46,564 nt of DNA from positions 1-46,564 of the forward strand of contig MHZX01000129.1 of NCBI GenBank assembly GCA_001828935.1. The letters are read 5' to 3'. The position numbers and the translations under genes are program-made. The notes below the pieces were generated by a model, which worked only from the letters and a program-made list of their open reading frames with translations, was not told the origin of the DNA and did no database searches. Shown here piece by piece: positions 4,438 to 39,314 of the stretch. Position 1 is the stretch's first letter. Every line of letters begins with the position of its first letter. The stretch is from Rhodocyclales bacterium RIFCSPLOWO2_02_FULL_63_24 (GTDB lineage: Bacteria > Pseudomonadota > Gammaproteobacteria > Burkholderiales > Rhodocyclaceae).

Positions 4438-5042
4438 TATTTGGTCTCGCGCTGAACCTCGCCGTCGCGCTGTTGCCAACGGCGACTTGGGCCGGCGCGC
4501 AGCACTATGAACCTCTGGCTGACAGCGTGCGGGCGGGCTTGCACGCTGCGATTGCCGACCGCGCAGCACCCGAGCCGCAGTTTCCCTCGATCCAGGAAAA
4601 GGTGAACTGGCTGACCGAGATGTCGGCGCGCCTGACCCGCCGCATGCCCGACCGCGAGGCGCGCCTGGATTTCCTCAAGACCGTGTATTACGAAGCCAAG
4701 CGCGCCGGCCTCGATCCGCAGATGGTGCTCGGCCTGATCCAGGTCGAGAGCGGCTTCAAGAAATATTCCGTTTCCTCGGCCGGTGCCCGCGGCTATATGC
4801 AAGTGATGCCCTTCTGGGTTCGCCTGATCGGCCACAAGGACAGCAACCTGTTCCACATGCGCACCAACCTGCGCTTCGGCTGCACCATCCTGCGCCACTA
4901 CCTGGACATCGAGAACGGCGATCTCTACCGCGCGCTGGGACGTTACAACGGCAGCCTGGGCAAACCTGAGTACCCCGGCATGGTGCGGGGGGCGTGGGAA
5001 AAGCAGTGGAGTTGGGGACCGCAGGTGATCGGGCCGCGATAG
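4428..5042 (+). CDS. Lytic transglycosylase, SLT domain
   Basis: A 204-aa exported murein lytic transglycosylase, expected to cleave peptidoglycan glycan strands in the periplasm. With the GTG start at 4428 the protein begins with a good signal peptide ([17 protein letters not shown], cleavage near residues 22-24). Catalytic Glu107 sits in [18 protein letters not shown], followed by GYMQVMPFW and later RYNGS, the SLT family-1 hallmarks. The start lies inside the last codons of proS, suggesting co-transcription and coupling. No ATG exists at a sensible position, and the ribosome-binding site is weak (AGAAG). The frame stays open far upstream only because it is a shadow of proS. Confidence 0.85.
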
Positions 5043-5059
5043 GCCCTGCGCTATTTCGT

Positions 5060-5081
5060 CGCCGTAACGCCAGCGCCGACT
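5060..5081 (+). repeat. Copy of the dispersed 22-nt motif
   Basis: CGCCGTAACG followed by CCAGCGCCGACT, 18 bp after the lytic transglycosylase stop. It forms the outer end of the left inverted repeat. Confidence 0.6.
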
Positions 5082-5345
5082 CTTGCTTCAGTGCCATCCC
5101 CGAGGCCGCGCCGGGTCTCGCCCCGGCAGGCGACCTACTTTCTTGTTCGCGCAAGAAAGTAGGCAAAGAAGCGCTCCCCGCCTCCCCGGCCCTTTGGGCT
5201 ACCCTCGCTGCGGAAGGCCCGCCGGGCCGGTCGCTAAACTCGCTTCGCTCAGACAACGCGACCGGACTTCCCCCGGCGAACCTTTCTCGCTCGGCGGGTC
5301 AGAGGGGAATACAAACCGTCGCGCGTGTCAGGTCGTGCTGAAAGT
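5060..5345 (+). repeat. Dispersed repeat, left copy of an inverted pair
   Basis: About 280 bp that recur in opposite orientation at 6346-6643, beyond the Mrr-like gene. Shared blocks, in order from the outer end: the 22-nt motif ending AGCGCCGACT (5060-5081), GCCGGG-TCTCGC-CCCGGC (5110-5127), an 11-bp hairpin CTACTTTCTTG/CAAGAAAGTAG (5135-5162), AGGCAAAGAAGCGCTCCCCG, CTACCCTCGCTGCGGAAGG with the GCCCGCCGGGCCGGTCGC that follows, CAACGCGACCGG, and GCTCGGCGGGTCAGAGGGGA. Open frames across it are repeat artefacts. No transposase is present. The type is a family I have seen as spurious ORFs in many proteobacterial genomes, but I cannot name it. Confidence 0.85.
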
Positions 5346-5466
5346 CACGTGAAGTTGATCTTTTTGGTTGCAATCCCCAAAGCATAGCCAGTGATACCAT
5401 GCTTCCGAGCAACCCCTGCGAATTAGCTGTTCAATTCTTTTGCCCGGTCCATTTGAGCTGCGACCT

Positions 5467-6345
5467 ATGACGCGAAAAAAGAAAGAGGAAGGTTCCCAGT
5501 TCGTCCGATACTTCGGGCCACTTCTGGATGCACTTCGCGGCCTTGGTGGTTCCGGAACACCAGATGAGGTTGTCGAACGAATCGCTAAGGATTTTGGCAT
5601 CTCCGATGCAGTTCAAAATGAACTTCTTCCATCTGGCGAATCTCGGTATCGAAATCAGGTTGCATGGGCGAGGTTCTACTTGGTCCGTGAAGGCCTTCTC
5701 GACTCATCAAAGCGCGGGGTCTGGAGTCTTACTGAGCGAGGGCGTGGAACTACGCTTTCGCCGGAGCAGTCGCGCGAGATTTTCCTCAAATGGGTCCGCA
5801 TCTATCAAGAACAACGACGAGCAAAAATACAGGCGCCGGAACCTGCAGAGGAACAAGTGGCCGAAGGCACCGGTGCCACGCCTAGCGACTACCGCGGCCA
5901 AGTCATCGGCCTACTTCTGAAACTGCCTCCATCGGGCTTTGAGCGGCTGTCTCAGCGCCTGTTAAGGGAGGCTGGCTTTACCCAGGTCGTGGTTACTGGT
6001 AGTAGTGGTGATGGGGGTATCGACGGATATGGCACTCTCCAAATCAATCCATTGGTTTCCTTCAAAGTCCTTTTCCAATGCAAACGCTACACAAAATCCG
6101 TCTCCCCCTCGCATGTTCGCGATTTCCGTGGCGCAATGGCTGGTCGTGCGGATAAGGGCATATTCATCACAACCGGAACCTTCTCTGCCGAGGCCCGTCG
6201 TGAAGCCTCACGCGATGGAGTTCCGCCAATTGAGCTTATAGATGGAGAGAAGCTCGTTGACATGCTTGAGTATCTTGAACTCGGCCTCAAACCGGTAACT
6301 ACTTATGAAATTGACGAGTCATTCTTTGGCGAGTTCAAGGGCTAG
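5467..6345 (+). CDS. Mrr-like restriction endonuclease
   Basis: A 292-aa protein with the Mrr architecture. An N-terminal winged-helix domain (about residues 10-95, similar to Mrr_N) is joined by a charged linker to a C-terminal PD-(D/E)XK-type nuclease (about 140-265). Catalytic signs are Glu159 in GFERL, Asp186 in GDGGIDG, and Gln204-x-Lys206 in FQCKRY, the QxK variant typical of Mrr. Mrr enzymes cut methylated foreign DNA; the specificity here is unknown. No methyltransferase is adjacent, consistent with a type IV system. The start is ATG 5467 (MTRKKKEE). The gene is visibly less GC-rich than its neighbours and lies exactly between two inverted repeat copies, so acquisition by transfer is likely. 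Confidence 0.85.
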   Translation: MTRKKKEEGSQFVRYFGPLLDALRGLGGSGTPDEVVERIAKDFGISDAVQNELLPSGESRYRNQVAWARFYLVREGLLDSSKRGVWSLTERGRGTTLSPEQSREIFLKWVRIYQEQRRAKIQAPEPAEEQVAEGTGATPSDYRGQVIGLLLKLPPSGFERLSQRLLREAGFTQVVVTGSSGDGGIDGYGTLQINPLVSFKVLFQCKRYTKSVSPSHVRDFRGAMAGRADKGIFITTGTFSAEARREASRDGVPPIELIDGEKLVDMLEYLELGLKPVTTYEIDESFFGEFKG

Positions 6346-6643
6346 TTTTCGGCACGGTCTGACACGCGTGACGCTTTTCATTCCCCTCTGACCCGCCGAG
6401 CGAGGAAGGTTCGCCGGGAGGTTTCCGGTCGCGTTGTCCGACGACGGCCGGTTTTTGGCCGGCTAGTTTAGCGACCGGCCCGGCGGGCCTTCCGCAGCGA
6501 GGGTAGCCCGCAGGGCCGGGGCGGCGGGGAGCGCTTCTTTGCCTACTTTCTTGCGCAAACAAGAAAGTAGGTCGCCTGCCGGGGCGAGACCCGGCATCTC
6601 CCTTGAGAGTACAGCCCCAGAAGTCGGCGCTGACGATACGGCG
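6346..6643 (-). repeat. Dispersed repeat, right copy of an inverted pair
   Basis: The reverse complement matches 5060-5345 over nearly its whole length with scattered differences. The hairpin CTACTTTCTTG/CAAGAAAGTAG is at 6543-6570 and the 22-nt motif is at 6622-6643. The copy begins immediately after the stop of the Mrr-like gene. It has a small insertion relative to the left copy: the inverted pair GGCCGG and CCGGCC around 6447-6464. An open frame over 6335-6655 on the minus strand is an artefact of the repeat. Confidence 0.85.
6622..6643 (-). repeat. Copy of the dispersed 22-nt motif
   Basis: Minus strand CGCCGTATCG followed by TCAGCGCCGACT. It forms the outer end of the right inverted repeat. 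Confidence 0.6.
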
Positions 6644-6665
6644 GAAATTACGCACTGACCTCTGG

Positions 6666-6685
6666 ATTCCCGCTTTCGCGGGAAT
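6666..6685. repeat. dRS3-like 20-bp inverted repeat, possible ffh terminator
   Basis: ATTCCC (6666-6671), eight bases, GGGAAT (6680-6685). This fits the neisserial dRS3 consensus ATTCCC-N8-GGGAAT, and the inner bases also pair (GC-rich 9-bp stem). It lies 9 bp beyond the ffh stop and could end ffh transcripts, though no long T-run follows on the minus strand. Confidence 0.6.
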
Positions 6686-6694
6686 GACGAAGCG

Positions 6695-8050
6695 TCACCG
6701 CATCCCCGGCAGCATGCCCTTCATGCCCCGCATCATCTTCTGCATTCCCCCCTTGGAAAACTGCTTCATCATCTTCTGCGTCTGCTCGAACTGATTCAGC
6801 AGACGATTGACTTCCTGCACCGACACGCCGGCGCCGGTGGCGATGCGGCGCTTGCGGTTGGCCTTGATGATCTCGGGTTTGCTGCGCTCGCCCGGCGTCA
6901 TCGAGTTGATGATGCCTTCCAGGCGCCGCACGGTTTTGTCCTCCATGCCGCCGCCGGCCTTCTGCGCCAGAGCGCCGAACTGCGCGGGCAGTTTGTCGAG
7001 CATGGCGGCCATGCCGCCCATCTTCTTCATCTGGCCGATCTGGTCTTTGAAGTCGTTGAGATCGAAGCCCTTGCCGGCCTTCATCTTCTTGACGAATTCC
7101 TGCGCCTTGTCCTGATCGACGCCGCGCTGGGCTTCCTCGACCAGGCCGAGGATGTCGCCCATGCCGAGGATGCGCGAGGCCATGCGTTCGGGATGGAATT
7201 CCTCCAGCCCGGTGAGCTTTTCGCCGACCCCGGCGAACTTGATCGGCTTGCCGGTGACGTGGCGCACCGACAGCGCCGCGCCGCCGCGCGAATCGCCGTC
7301 GAGCTTGGTCAGGATCACGCCGGTCAGCGGCAGCGCCTCGTTGAAGGCCTTGGCCGTATTCACCGCATCCTGGCCGAGCATGGCGTCCACCACGAACAGG
7401 GCTTCTATCGGGTTCAGGAGGGCATGCAGATCCTTGATCTCGGCCATCATCGCTTCATCGATCGCGAGCCGTCCGGCGGTGTCGACGAAGAGCACGTCGT
7501 AGTAGTGCCGCTTGGCGTGATCCAGTGCGGCGGCGGCAATATCGGCTGGCTTCTGCCCGCCCGAAGAGGGGAAGAAGTCGATTCCGGCCTGGGCCGAAAC
7601 GGCTTTCAACTGCTCGATGGCGGCTGGGCGATAAACGTCGCAGCTTACCGTCAGGACCTTCTTCTTCTGTCGTTCCTTGAGCCACTTGCCGAGCTTGGCC
7701 GTGGTGGTGGTCTTGCCGGCCCCCTGTAGGCCCGACATCAGGATCACGGCCGGCGGCTGGGTGGCGAGATTCAAGCCGGAGCTGGCGCCACCCATCAACT
7801 CGGTCAACTCCCGATGCACGACGCCGACCAGCGCCTGGCCGGGCGTCAGGGAACCGATGACTTCCTGTCCCAGCGCCTTCTCCTTGACGTGGGCGGTGAA
7901 GTCCTTGACCACCGGCAGAGCCACGTCGGCTTCGAGCAAAGCCATGCGCACTTCGCGCAGCATGTCGGAAATGTTGTCGTCGGTCAGCCGGGCCTGGCCG
8001 CGCAGGTTCTTTACGACGCGGACGAGGCGCTGAGTAAGGTTATCTAGCAT
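6695..8050 (-). CDS. ffh: Signal recognition particle protein Ffh
   Basis: Ffh binds 4.5S RNA and signal sequences of nascent inner-membrane proteins, and docks with FtsY. The 451-aa protein has the N domain (MLDNLTQRLVRVVKNLRGQ), the GTPase G domain with P-loop GLQGAGKTTTTAKLG and DTAGRLAIDE, and a methionine-rich M domain ending KMMRGMKGMLPGMR. The ATG at 8050 gives the normal N terminus; a longer open frame to 8116 runs into the divergent gene's leader. It is divergent from a CcsA/YpjD-like gene, an arrangement also seen in enterobacteria. Confidence 0.97.
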   Translation of the reverse strand: MLDNLTQRLVRVVKNLRGQARLTDDNISDMLREVRMALLEADVALPVVKDFTAHVKEKALGQEVIGSLTPGQALVGVVHRELTELMGGASSGLNLATQPPAVILMSGLQGAGKTTTTAKLGKWLKERQKKKVLTVSCDVYRPAAIEQLKAVSAQAGIDFFPSSGGQKPADIAAAALDHAKRHYYDVLFVDTAGRLAIDEAMMAEIKDLHALLNPIEALFVVDAMLGQDAVNTAKAFNEALPLTGVILTKLDGDSRGGAALSVRHVTGKPIKFAGVGEKLTGLEEFHPERMASRILGMGDILGLVEEAQRGVDQDKAQEFVKKMKAGKGFDLNDFKDQIGQMKKMGGMAAMLDKLPAQFGALAQKAGGGMEDKTVRRLEGIINSMTPGERSKPEIIKANRKRRIATGAGVSVQEVNRLLNQFEQTQKMMKQFSKGGMQKMMRGMKGMLPGMR

Positions 8051-16549: not shown

Positions 16550-17819
16550 TCCCGACAAACGCCGCAGCGCGTTCGGGCAACAGACGATAGGCGGCGTCGG
16601 CAGGCCCGCCGTAGCGGCGCAAGCCCGCGTCGAAGCGCAGCCGTTCGCCTTGCCAGGCCAATGCCGTGGTCAGCGTCCAGCCGCCATCGCCGAGGGATTT
16701 AAGTACATCGACGGAGGCCGACCAGGCGCCGCCCGGCTCGCTCCATGCCAGACGCGCCAACAGGCCGCGTTGCGCGAGGTTGCCCTGGTCGAACATGCGC
16801 GTCGAGGCCGCCGTGGCGCCGGCGACGGCCGCTGCCGGAACGCCCGGCAGGCCGCTCAGTGCCGCCCGTCGCGCGGCCTGACGCACCAGTCGTTGCCAGT
16901 CGGCCGGCGTAGGCGTCGTGCCGTCCCACCAGAATTCGCCGAGCAGCGAATAGCCCTCTGCGCTGGTCCAGGTACCCCCTACCAGCACCTTGCGCGGCGT
17001 GGCGATGGCTTCCGTGACGAGTGCGCTGTCTGCCGACAACAGCTGGGCGACCGAAGCACCATCGGCGAGCGGCACCTGTCGCTCGCCCCGCCGCTGCAAC
17101 AGGGCGGAAGCGTGAAGCTCCAGCGCATCGCTGGGCACCATGGACGCCGCGGCTCCCAGTTCCAGGCCGTAGCGATTGGAGTTGCGCAACACGCCGTGCA
17201 GATCGGCCGCGCCGACGCGACGGTAAATCTTCAAGGCCACAGAGCCATCCTCGCGCGCCTCGCCGCGCCGCTGATGGCCGGGGTTGGCGATCACCAGCGA
17301 CCAGGCGCCGTCGGCCGTGAAATTGTCCCAACTCAGCATCGGAATACCTTCCAGTTGAGGCGCTGCGAGCTGCAAGCGGCTTTCCCGCTGCAGCACGTCG
17401 AGCGGCCGGAACGCATAGGCGACATCGCCGGAGAGCATTTTCTTGCCGACCGAAAAGCGCTGTCCGCCGAGGCTGAGGTCGGCGTAGGCCTCGTTGGCGA
17501 CAAACCTTCCGCTTGGCTTGACCCCTTCCTGGCCCGATTCGGTGGCGGTCAGCAACAAGGACAGCGGGCCGACGCGCCCGCGCAATTCCTGTTCGATGCG
17601 ATAGCGGTCGCGGCCAAAATCGGTCAGCCCCAGTCCGGCCGCCAACGGACTGTCGCGGCGCAGTTCGTGGCCTTCGCCGACTAGGCGCGAGGTCCAGCCG
17701 AAATCCGGCGCGCCGTCCTCGGCGCCGGCGGACAGCGTCGCGCTGGCAGTCAGCAGTCCGGCCAGACAATGCAAGAGTCGGCGCTGACAAGACGGCGCAG
17801 TAAAGCGAAGACGCTTCAT
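16533..17819 (-). CDS. Predicted outer-membrane beta-barrel protein, uncharacterised
   Basis: A 428-aa protein of unknown family. It has a signal peptide-like start (KRLRFTAPSCQRRLLHCLA, then a hydrophobic stretch to SAGA), many short alternating hydrophobic stretches, and the C-terminal AFVGISLAY ending in an aromatic residue, as in Bam-inserted barrels. It has no recognised enzymatic motif. It is the last gene of the coupled operon with an ABC ATPase, a permease and a LolA-like carrier (ATGA overlap with the latter), so it may be the outer-membrane receiver or an exporter pore. A copy of the dispersed 22-nt repeat forms codons about 8-15 of the leader. Confidence 0.7.
   Translation of the reverse strand: MKRLRFTAPSCQRRLLHCLAGLLTASATLSAGAEDGAPDFGWTSRLVGEGHELRRDSPLAAGLGLTDFGRDRYRIEQELRGRVGPLSLLLTATESGQEGVKPSGRFVANEAYADLSLGGQRFSVGKKMLSGDVAYAFRPLDVLQRESRLQLAAPQLEGIPMLSWDNFTADGAWSLVIANPGHQRRGEAREDGSVALKIYRRVGAADLHGVLRNSNRYGLELGAAASMVPSDALELHASALLQRRGERQVPLADGASVAQLLSADSALVTEAIATPRKVLVGGTWTSAEGYSLLGEFWWDGTTPTPADWQRLVRQAARRAALSGLPGVPAAAVAGATAASTRMFDQGNLAQRGLLARLAWSEPGGAWSASVDVLKSLGDGGWTLTTALAWQGERLRFDAGLRRYGGPADAAYRLLPERAAAFVGISLAY
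17776..17797 (-). repeat. Copy of the dispersed 22-nt motif inside the beta-barrel gene leader
   Basis: Minus strand CGCCGTCTTG followed by TCAGCGCCGACT, then CTTGCATTG. It encodes part of the signal-peptide region, including CQRRL. Confidence 0.6.
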
Positions 17820-18592
17820 TGCGTCAGGTCCGCCCGCACCAGGAAGGCCGGGTTGAAGTAATCGTCGGACAGGGTCTTGTCCGTGCGCGACAGGTAGTGC
17901 ACCTCGGTCGAGCGCTCCTTCTGCAAGTGATCGATCAGGGTCATCACCGTCACCTGCTTGCGACCGTCGACAGTGCCCAATTGGAAGCGGGCCAGCTTGG
18001 CGAGTTTGTCGGAAGCGACATACAGCTCCGCCTGTACCGGATGATGATCCTTCTTCGCCAGGTAGAGCACGATGCGCGGATAGCTGACGCCCTTGCGCTG
18101 ACCAACAAGGTCAAGCTTGAGGCAGGGCACGCCGTCGATGGTCTCCTCGCCGACCTGCCGGCCGTCGTAATCCTCGCCCCAGGTCATGGTCGCGACATCA
18201 CCGGTCGAGGCTTCGCCGAGCAGCTTCTGCATGGCCGTAATGCGCAGCGGACGCTGGCTGGAGGGCATCATCAGCCAGTAGTCATCGCCCAGCATCAGCA
18301 TTTTTTGTCCGCGCTCGGTCGCGGTACGGAACAGCACCAGCGAACGGTGGCCGGGCTTCAGATAGACGGCATAGAGCCGAGTCTTGTCCAGCACGCCGGC
18401 CCTGAAGGTGCGCACCTCGGTTTCGACCCGCCCCGATTCCATGGCCAGGCGATAGGCATCGGCCTGCTTCAGCAGAGCCTTGACCTTGGCGTCCTCTGCT
18501 GCCATTACCTGCCCGCAGAGCGGAATCCCAAGTATACAAAGCGCCGCGAGACTGATCGCCGCCAGCGACAATAGTGCAATTCTCTTAAACAT
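17816..18592 (-). CDS. LolA-like outer-membrane lipoprotein-sorting protein
   Basis: A 258-aa exported protein of the LolA/LppX-like fold family (COG2834 type). MFKRIALLSLAAISLAALCILGIPLCG is the signal peptide region. The mature part has the usual repeating pattern of beta strands: VETEVRTFRAG, TRLYAVYLKPG, KMLMLGDDYWLMMPSS, WGEDYDGRQVGEETIDGVPCLKLDL and later YFNPAFLVRADL. Such proteins carry acyl chains or lipoproteins across the periplasm; here the cargo is unknown. It is distinct from housekeeping LolA in size and context. ATG 18592 is chosen because upstream residues are shadow of the permease gene. It overlaps the permease stop by 8 bp. Confidence 0.82.
   Translation of the reverse strand: MFKRIALLSLAAISLAALCILGIPLCGQVMAAEDAKVKALLKQADAYRLAMESGRVETEVRTFRAGVLDKTRLYAVYLKPGHRSLVLFRTATERGQKMLMLGDDYWLMMPSSQRPLRITAMQKLLGEASTGDVATMTWGEDYDGRQVGEETIDGVPCLKLDLVGQRKGVSYPRIVLYLAKKDHHPVQAELYVASDKLAKLARFQLGTVDGRKQVTVMTLIDHLQKERSTEVHYLSRTDKTLSDDYFNPAFLVRADLTQ
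18508..18543 (-). repeat. Dispersed repeat inside the LolA-like gene leader
   Basis: This 36-bp stretch is close to 27711-27744: both contain GCGGAATCCCA flanked by CCTGCC on one side and ACA/GCAGAGCG on the other. On the coding (minus) strand it forms the part of the signal peptide that reads LCILGIPLCG. Confidence 0.5.
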
Positions 18593-21664: not shown

Positions 21665-21686
21665 AGTCGGCGCTGACGGTGCGGCG
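21665..21686 (-). repeat. Copy of the dispersed 22-nt motif
   Basis: On the minus strand this reads CGCCGCACCG followed by TCAGCGCCGACT. It sits 5 bp beyond the hsp20 stop, before the terminator hairpin. See the other copies at 5060, 6622, 17776 and 39293. Confidence 0.6.
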
Positions 21687-27624: not shown

Positions 27625-27750
27625 GGCCAAGCCAAAAATAAAAGCCCTGCGGGCGAATTGTGTGAGCTATCCCCCCGTTGAGCTATCCCCCCGGCCCCTT
27701 TTCCGGGATGCCTGCCGCAAAGCGGAATCCCAGGTACGCAGAGCGAGGGG
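27612..27750. repeat. Dispersed repeat block with long inverted repeat
   Basis: GGGCTTTATTTTTGGC (27612-27627) pairs with 27631-27647 with a single bulge and a 3-nt loop. A 14-bp direct repeat GAGCTATCCCCCCG occurs at 27664-27677 and 27680-27693. The end of the block, 27711-27744, matches 18508-18543 over about 35 bp with few changes (core GCGGAATCCCA). Open frames here are repeat artefacts similar to ones annotated in other betaproteobacteria. The stretch contains no gene. Confidence 0.6.
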
Positions 27751-30060: not shown

Positions 30061-31133
30061 TCAGCCAGCGCCGCCAGCAGTTCGGCCTGGTGCTCGGCGG
30101 TCAGGGCGCCGACCAGTTCATCGAGATCGCCGTCCATGATGGCGTCGATCTTGTACAGCGTCAGATTGATGCGGTGGTCGGTAATCCGCCCCTGCGGGAA
30201 ATTGTAGGTGCGGATGCGCTCGGAGCGGTCGCCGGAACCGATCAGCGATTTGCGCTGCGAGGCGATTTTCTGCTGCTGCTCGCGCTGCTTGGCGTCGTTG
30301 ATGCGCGCCGCCAGCACCGACATCGCCTGCGCCTTGTTGCGATGCTGCGAGCGGTCGTCCTGGCATTCGACGACGATGCCGGTCGGGATGTGGGTGATGC
30401 GCACCGCCGAATCGGTCTTGTTGATGTGCTGGCCGCCGGCGCCCGAGGCGCGGAAGGTGTCGATGCGCAGGTCGGCGGGATTGATGTCGATATCGACCAG
30501 CTCATCCGCCTCCGGCATCACCGCCACGGTGCACGCCGAGGTGTGGATGCGGCCCTGGGTCTCGGTCACCGGCACGCGCTGCACGCGATGGCCGCCCGAC
30601 TCGAACTTGAGCTTGGAGTAGGCGCCCCTGCCTTCGATGCGGGCGATGATCTCGCGGAATCCGCCCAGGTCGGATTCGCTGCGCGAAACGATCTCGACTT
30701 TCCAGCGCTGGCGTTCGGCATAGCGGCTATACATGCGGAACAGGTCGGCGGCGAACAGCGCCGATTCGTCGCCGCCGGTGCCGGCACGGATTTCCAGGAA
30801 CAGGTTGCGCTCGTCGTTGGGATCCTTCGGCAACAGCGCGCATTGCAGTTCGCCTTCGAGCCGGGTCATCGCGGCCGTGGCCGATTCCTGCTCGTCGAGC
30901 GCGAGTTCCTTCATCTCCGGATCGCCGAGCATTTCGCCCGCACTCGAATAGTCGGCGCTGGCGCTACGGTAAAGATGAAAGAGTTCCACCACCGGCGTGA
31001 TGTCGGCGCGCTCGCGGGTGAGCTTGCGATAGCTGTCCATGTCGCGCGCGGCCTGTTCGCCGCCGAGCAGGCCGTCGATTTCGCCAAGGCGTTCGCTCAG
31101 GCGTTCGAGTTTTTCAAGAATGCTTTTTTTCAT
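30057..31133 (-). CDS. prfA: Peptide chain release factor 1
   Basis: RF1 reads UAA and UAG. The 358-aa protein carries the codon-recognition loop as PVT in [15 protein letters not shown] (PxT motif, Val variant) and the GGQ motif in [21 protein letters not shown]. Length matches (360 in E. coli). The N-terminal segment [14 protein letters not shown] contains a copy of the dispersed 22-nt motif (30950-30971) in frame, which is odd in a conserved gene. Gene order hemA-plsB-prfA-prmC on the minus strand. Confidence 0.97.
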
Positions 31134-39292: not shown

Positions 39293-39314
39293 AGTCGGCG
39301 CTGGTGATACGGTG
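39293..39314 (-). repeat. Copy of the dispersed 22-nt motif
   Basis: On the minus strand this reads CACCGTATCACCAGCGCCGACT minus its last two, so its core is CAGCGCCGACT. It lies 45 bp upstream of the SEC-C gene start, between it and the toxin gene. Confidence 0.5.

Follow-up and report, generated by a model that had tools for sequence, protein, structure and literature searches.

A restriction gene enclosed by two long inverted arms in Rhodocyclales bacterium RIFCSPLOWO2_02_FULL_63_24 belongs to a widespread family of cassettes that have no recombinase of their own; that they are moved by natural transformation and homologous recombination is our favoured explanation, at about even odds (a probability of roughly 0.5). 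The unit occupies positions 5060 to 6643 of the window, i.e. of the whole stretch of 46,564 nucleotides that was analysed. A cassette of this family consists of one to few foreign, low-GC genes between two inverted arms of ~300 bp, each with a core of ~200 bp that carries conserved hairpins. The cassettes hold preferred intergenic sites; their content varies from one species to the next, with unchanged chromosomal flanks.

The left arm of the window's cassette, delimited by a search of its own genome and by complementarity, spans 284 bp (5060-5343, + strand), and the right arm is an inverted copy of 297 bp (6347-6643, - strand). An earlier note on this DNA had described near-identical repeats of ~280 bp with hairpins around an Mrr-like gene. 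The arrangement was confirmed, but near-identity is restricted to a core: the arms are 96% complementary in one block (134 bp) and 86% in another (95 bp), whereas over their full length they are ~82% identical (E 4.8e-81, own-genome search). Model R1 recognised a structured core in the left arm at 5110-5309 (+) with 220.8 bits, this arm being one of the model's 62 source arms, and in the right arm at 6381-6595 (-) with 199.9 bits. The hairpin CTACTTTCTTG-TTCGCG-CAAGAAAGTAG at 5135-5162, whose stem shows compensatory changes throughout the family, recurs in the right arm as CTACTTTCTTG..CAAGAAAGTAG at 6543-6570. At the outer end of each arm, as the earlier note had it, lies a 22-nt motif (5060-5081, +; 6622-6643, -); both copies point inward, and the 22 nt are the core of a sharply bounded 26-bp motif. 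The right arm begins 1 nt past the stop codon of the enclosed gene and the gap between the left arm and the ATG is 123 bp; on the inner side of the left arm conservation within the genus often extends ~50 bp further inward (by eye). The site is flanked by slt, a lytic transglycosylase-like reading frame (4438-5042, +), and by the SRP54-like ffh (6695-8050, -), both named after the earlier note. Rfam yielded 0 matches at E ≤ 1 for positions 4900-6900. A further palindromic repeat, CTGGATTCCCGC..GCGGGAATGACG, is located just outside the right arm (6662-6689) and recurs near motif copies in relatives. Elsewhere in the window a 31-bp repeat occurs in two copies that are 84% identical (18513-18543 and 27715-27745).

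The cargo gene (5467-6345, +; 292 aa) matched the Pfam domains Mrr_cat (PF04471; 9.9e-33, 113.1 bits, cut-off 21) and Mrr_N (PF14338; 1.9e-25, 89.2 bits, cut-off 29.5). PADLOC models of type IV restriction matched as well, mREase_IV with 1.2e-27. By both domains the gene is assigned to the Mrr-type, methyl-directed type IV restriction enzymes, and its product is predicted to cut modified DNA. Its GC content is 0.53, that of the stretch preceding it 0.48 and that of neighbouring genes ~0.64, which agrees with the lower GC reported before. The absence of a transposase or integrase from the unit was likewise confirmed by the Pfam scan of the cargo, leaving a passenger between inverted repeats. 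We inspected the window and 50 of 80 loci with Mrr relatives, five of them too near a contig end. Relatives from other named bacteria with 84% (L086), 86% (L091) and 73% (L097) amino acid identity lie between attC-like sites and another (L099) between long REP-like inverted repeats, both judged by eye. Thus the Mrr gene looks like an itinerant passenger. A firm association of Mrr with the arm cassettes was rejected, as a scan of 50 of the 80 kept Mrr relatives with the arm model found none bracketed; the sole arm among these 50 was a single weak one 1.6 kb from the relative in L121. The 22-nt motif was absent from all 80 Mrr-relative loci (586 kb).

The pairing of the arms is unlikely to be accidental and lies far from chance: the left arm matched 45 places in its own genome (G000), which include three other inward-facing pairs on contigs C39, C31 and C93. 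The C39 cassette encloses a 208-aa frame, that on C31 a 171-aa frame, an HTH-like frame (by eye) and others, and that on C93, upstream of metG, a 170-aa frame. Arm fragments were found on C130, C49 and C9, and the remaining short matches were mostly single copies of the outer motif. No cargo of the four complete cassettes matched that of another. So the question raised before, whether repeat pairs flank other variable genes, is answered in the affirmative. Among the matches listed (16 candidates scored per genome in most), 23 of 31 genomes of the genus had arm-core matches and one (G004) had the outer part of the arm only. Seven others (G006, G007, G015, G026, G027, G028, G030) showed no arm core among the matches listed, and what did match there may be the motif only; G026 matched with slt alone among those listed.

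Forty cassettes, 28 from the genus and 12 from the family, were compared with each other, having been chosen as inward pairs from the fetched stretches; cargo was counted as matching at a tblastx E ≤ 1e-8. The comparison omitted family pairs with little or no cargo (G056, G138, G172, G122 and two of G162), a 134-bp pair near metG in G021, a 233-bp interval between arms of the same direction in G008 and an IS481-like interval in G001 (L084 1181-2492). The latter contains an IS481-like transposase gene between arm pieces (1271-2446), probably an insertion into a cassette. The GC content of the cargo in the genus was 0.47-0.57; that of the flanks, taken over 16 intervals, was 0.59-0.67.

Changing cargo at fixed chromosomal sites is well supported by this comparison. 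Minimal mobile elements are defined as variable genes at conserved sites, and conserved flanks with differing genes were indeed found at slt|ffh and at metG. Eight genus cassettes have slt|ffh flanks in common, with pairwise identities of 82-94% over the matched flank, and no cargo match was seen among the eight at the above threshold. Every one of them has one flank or both in common with other cassettes, and for five of them slt and ffh were found on either side of the same interval. Of the 27 genomes probed, 17 had slt and ffh joined in this way. Five of these carry arm pairs (G000, G023, G018, G022, G008). Four are nearly empty, with 14 bp in G001, 46 bp in G014 and 58 bp in G017 (one motif each in the last two) and 79 bp in G016. 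Seven measure 122-370 bp and contain between one and three copies of the motif; the CCGGG hairpin is present as well in three of these seven. Remnants of the motif and of the hairpin are thus a feature of the short intervals. G026 has 1543 bp without arms. In the other ten genomes slt and ffh were not joined. Three of these (G020, G021, G024) have cassettes on contigs matching the ffh-side flank, the slt contig of G021 stopping 148 bp past slt; G009 has an arm beyond slt, and in G003 the contig stops at the start of an arm. Past slt, G007, G002, G027, G006, G030 and also G024 continue with other sequence for 3.3-5.4 kb. In five loci (L067, L068, L069, L072, L081) a small frame, MQTVNIRQLKTNP..., resembling Phd/YefM-type antitoxins, precedes the cassette on the slt side (by eye).

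The second site lies upstream of metG, where 11 of 27 genomes have arms no more than 1.5 kb away (29 loci were covered, of which three extend <310 bp upstream). Seven metG cassettes were compared and only those of G003 and G023 had cargo in common. A further site in the genus is common to cassettes of G001 and G022 by both flanks, and in a second genus G106 and G151 have one flank in common. In G007, G027, G006 and G030 a single contig carries slt and metG at a distance of 0.1-1.2 kb; elsewhere the gene that slt faces is ffh. Because the slt and metG junctions are both cassette sites, an arm-mediated rearrangement is possible. Related cargo also occurs at different sites, as distinguished by comparing flanks over at most 760 bp per side: that of the C31 cassette in the window's genome recurs in the metG cassettes of G023 and G003 (82-84% amino acid identity) and part of that on G020:C280 in G024:C23 (86% over 189 aa). 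Of the weaker matches, three span 30-37 aa and another 80 aa at 35%. The first 100 bp of the arm core are hardly more alike at the same site (0.913) than at different sites of different genomes (0.893). The corresponding values for the outer 50 bp of the arms are 0.802 and 0.786, without a signal of exchange breakpoints.

Taken together, the idea of a defined, non-autonomous cassette gained support, since other variable genes, too, are enclosed by repeat pairs, and relatives differ in what lies between slt and ffh, down to the nearly empty sites of 14-58 bp for which the earlier note had suggested to look. The opposite case, random repeat copies with a vertically inherited Mrr gene beside single repeats, did not materialise.

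The content of the cassettes was assessed by a Pfam scan of 30 proteins besides that of the window, a subset of the reading frames. Matches above the curated cut-offs were Mrr_N (G021), Mrr_cat (G058), HNH (G023), HARE-HTH (G022), T5orf172 (G151), PNPOx (G129), NgoFVII-type PLD (G005), HIRAN (G017), DUF4145 (G012) and DUF4435 with AAA (G024). The IS481-like transposase of G001 is also among the 30; several further matches were weak, and 13 proteins had no match at E ≤ 0.01. Among ten cargo proteins searched with PADLOC, a fused AriAB of the PARIS system stood out (4.7e-138; L311 1347-2945, G024:C38), followed by a TIR effector in G001 (4.2e-09); PtuB and PbeA/mREase_IV matches were weak and five of the ten had none. 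The earlier note had suggested an exchange of defence genes. Mrr, PARIS, TIR-like, PLD/NgoFVII-like and HNH genes are indeed among the cargo, but 13 of the 30 other proteins lack a Pfam match; judged by these domain matches, defence is not the only kind of cargo.

The repeat extends beyond this genome, and sequence searches found its structured core across the family and the order. In the family the left arm matched at least 51 of 150 genomes at E ≤ 0.001, in 28 of 68 genera (5 candidates scored per genome in most); 13 of the 51 had E > 1e-6 and may be motif only, while strong matches of 2e-10 or better occurred in at least 38 genomes of 22 genera. Outside the genus, homology is mostly confined to positions 51 to ~250 of the query, that is, to the core without the motif. 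Cassettes of the family beyond the genus have equally varied cargo, although some arm pairs enclose 100-210 bp only. In G078 (L219, L220) three to four arm cores follow each other in direct orientation, mostly ~380 bp apart and without genes.

An alignment (A1) of 62 arm cores was built from 61 of 80 listed arms and the window's left arm. The 19 listed arms left out include those with insertions of ~70 bp, near-duplicates and the copies in L202 that stem from the window itself. RNAalifold predicted 42 pairs, 28 of which show compensatory (double) changes; columns 27-58, for example, are CG in 32 and GC in 30 cores. A model of A1 matched at least 70 of 200 genomes of the order in 44 of 109 genera (12 candidates scored per genome in most). 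At the best-matching loci outside the family an inward-facing partner lay within 1.5 kb in 10 of 18, and an eleventh (G608) had it ~3 kb on. For loci of the family the count was 9 of 26, one with a partial arm. The exact hairpin pattern occurred in two genomes besides the own one among 369 of the class, at loci scoring 37-54 bits with the model. As the fold of a single arm is no better than that of its shuffles (z -0.93), the case for structure rests on the covariation. Correction of palindromes by template switching could be another source of it, and the pair types in the core alignment, 55 G-U against 70 A-C cells, suggest no RNA-like excess. Within the genus the inner arm end often reads ...GAAGCYGACCC, ~50 bp inside the core (by eye; a regular expression caught 11 of 54 arm ends). 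Carriage of the arms by phages or plasmids was rejected, because blastn found no match of the left arm in either the plasmid or the viral collection; in viral contigs the hairpin pattern occurred in 0 stretches and the extended motif in one. A literature search at the level of titles and abstracts yielded neither a description of the arm repeat nor of any uptake sequence in the window's family.

The motif at the outer ends turned out not to be a marker of cassette ends as first thought. Its ~660 genomic copies are mostly solo, dispersed and mostly within predicted genes; the window itself has four without an arm, all on the - strand (17776-17797, with a degenerate last part, 21665-21686, 30950-30971 and 39293-39314). 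At up to two mismatches we counted 661 copies in G000 (1 for the reversed-pattern control) and 688 in G001 (control 2), split between the strands 339 to 322 and 342 to 346, i.e. without bias. Counts were 160-745 in 30 of the 31 genus genomes listed and 52 in G026, with controls of at most 6. Among the family genomes listed they were high in genera g8, g19, g38, g46 and g64, 99 in g45 and near zero in most genera. In 800 kb of the closed genome G001, AGCGCCGACT occurs 128 times exactly and its reverse 9 times. The motif logo from this stretch rises sharply over 26 positions with nearly no information outside. Gene calls were crude, being made by GC3 score; by these 123 of 160 copies (0.77) lie in predicted genes, below the coding density of 0.91, and 78 of 126 gene overlaps are in one codon phase (phase 2). 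The copies are evenly spaced (CV 0.77). In G074, from another genus, CAGCGTCGACT replaces CAGCGCCGACT, AGCGTC standing for AGCGCC, in 24 of the 26 matches listed; the variant has 136 copies at up to one mismatch (control 0) and is the one clear case of a dialect. The link of motif and arms was tested in 22 of the 28 genus cassettes, of whose 44 arms 39 were testable. In 34 of the 39 the motif points inward and in none outward (up to 4 mismatches, up to 110 bp outside the core). It lies 20-24 bp outside the core in 26 of the 34, and three of the 34 are poor matches.

By over-representation and by its dialect the motif bears the genomic hallmarks of DNA uptake sequences, and it may have a role in uptake. 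That it is instead a site of chromosome organisation or protein binding, or a relic of miniature transposons, seems quite possible without being probable. The motif is longer than the neisserial DUS, for which passages of PMC3388099 give 10-12 nt. ComEC was found in 15 of 15 genomes tested and does not discriminate, because these include five motif-poor ones (G026, G034, G047, G078, G091). Such sites would, however, fit poorly with the lack of strand bias, the sharp ends without flanking conservation, the location in genes with a codon-phase bias, the even spacing and the dialect at family level. Miniature-transposon relics in particular are unlikely, since only 4 facing pairs closer than 250 bp occurred among 177 matches in 800 kb, the copies being mostly solo; the idea that motif copies form the terminal inverted repeats of a MITE, a miniature transposon, was rejected on this ground.

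We favour the view that the cassettes travel by transformation and recombination, because flanks and arms provide homology, the motif tags the arms and minimal mobile elements set a precedent. Cassettes would enter cells by natural transformation. Homologous recombination through the chromosomal flanks would replace one cassette by another at the same site, and recombination through the arms themselves would carry a cassette to a different site. In the genus, the inward 26-bp motif usually present on each arm would label the cassette so that related cells take it up. Yet arms and cassettes occur in genera with almost no motif, so motif-driven uptake cannot be the general mechanism. Unpaired arms, the missing breakpoint signal and a share of motifs in genes below the coding density also count against this route. 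Moreover, the defined ends of the arms and their covariation are explained more readily by a recombinase that acts on folded DNA than by homologous recombination alone.

As the main rival to this route, the cassettes may be non-autonomous elements that a dedicated recombinase or HUH (Y1) transposase moves in trans by recognising the folded arms, similar to mobile insertion cassettes (MICs) or to integron cassettes served by a different enzyme, a proposal we regard as tentative. Such an enzyme would account for the defined arm ends (the inner one often GAAGCYGACCC, by eye), the strong covariation of the core, the spread of arms independently of the motif and the same cargo at different sites, and a Y1_Tnp match is present in 26 of 31 genus genomes. 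These are 21 of the 23 with arm-core matches among those listed and 5 of the 8 others. Yet neither the window's genome (91% complete) nor G005 (83%), both of which have arms, has a Y1 match, and the Pfam scan of 31 cargo proteins, a subset of the reading frames, showed no recombinase apart from the IS481-like insertion in G001. Nor do arms bracket the Y1 genes: 30 loci gave one weak arm match, and several of these genes have other, shorter inverted repeats of the AAAGGGG(T/C)CAG type. A Y1 transposase as the gene between the arms was rejected, as arms are not found at the ends of the Y1 genes in these loci. No target-site duplication was apparent when empty and filled slt|ffh sites were compared by eye, at this one site. 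Among L340-L364 of the genus, several Y1_Tnp genes are flanked by short inverted repeats of the CAAAGGGGTCAGAGTCATTT type (e.g. L349 1078-1097 and 1886-1905), which fit the TIRtron motif GGGGWSAS as given in passages of PMC3733652; the inner cassette end GAAGCYGACCC resembles it.

A purely passive role, in which structured repeats such as terminators, insulators or REP-like elements gather round foreign genes and look like cassettes through mere tolerance, we consider improbable. Compact pairs without cargo, tandem direct arrays and unpaired arms do exist, but a passive role would not predict inward pairs whose cargo changes at conserved sites. Outside the family, 10 of 18 loci have a second arm, and there it faces the first one inward.

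The route we prefer has its precedent in the minimal mobile elements of Neisseria, for which passages of PMC3388099 give a link to DUS and integration through homologous recombination. The cassettes resemble them in having variable genes at conserved sites and in the link to a sequence of uptake type, here a putative one. What sets the cassettes apart is the conserved pair of structured inverted arms around the gene, which recurs across the order; those passages of PMC3388099 mention no such arms. MICs and TIME-COMP elements likewise have repeats around passenger genes of low GC and no transposase; parts of PMC4133298 give 53.3% GC for TIME-COMP1 in a plasmid of 63.7%, and for TIMEs 38-bp Tn3-type ends with target duplications of 5 or 6 bp. 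The cassettes differ by arms of ~300 bp with a covarying core, by no duplication seen by eye at slt|ffh and by no blastn match of the left arm among the plasmids searched. Integron cassettes are also small units with structured ends (attC). The window's arms, however, are inverted rather than direct and have a multi-stem core of ~200 nt, and no integrase is among the scanned cargo proteins; the other cassettes were chosen as inward pairs and are no independent test of arm orientation against attC. REP/BIME elements and TIRtrons (RAYT, TIRYT) resemble the arms in being paired, inverted and self-complementary repeats, and the genus has Y1 genes with inverted repeats of the GGGG(T/C)CAG type, of which GGGGTCAG fits the TIRtron TIR motif GGGGWSAS in the passages of PMC3733652. 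Yet arms are not found around the Y1 genes examined, and their length greatly exceeds the 20-40 bp of REPs.

Uptake sequences of the DUS and USS type occur in hundreds of copies on both strands, also inside genes, and form dialects. The window's motif is similar in all these respects; it differs from them in its greater length of 26 bp and in belonging to another bacterial family. The uptake sequences named in the passages of PMC12616744 are DUS in Neisseriaceae and USS in Pasteurellaceae.

The arms point to an extensive family of structured DNA, for which the Rfam copy searched gave no match (positions 4900-6900). In its boldest form, which we put forward as a conjecture less probable than not, our reading states that a DNA uptake sequence arose independently for a third time in this family of betaproteobacteria-like genomes, has at least one dialect and was captured by order-wide folded-arm cassettes without a recombinase, one inward copy per arm. 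Defence and other accessory genes would then bear uptake tags of their own and be swapped at fixed sites by transformation. If true, uptake sequences would extend beyond the DUS of Neisseriaceae and the USS of Pasteurellaceae named in those passages, and accessory and defence genes would have a simple route of reshuffling among related bacteria that needs no enzyme encoded by the cassettes.
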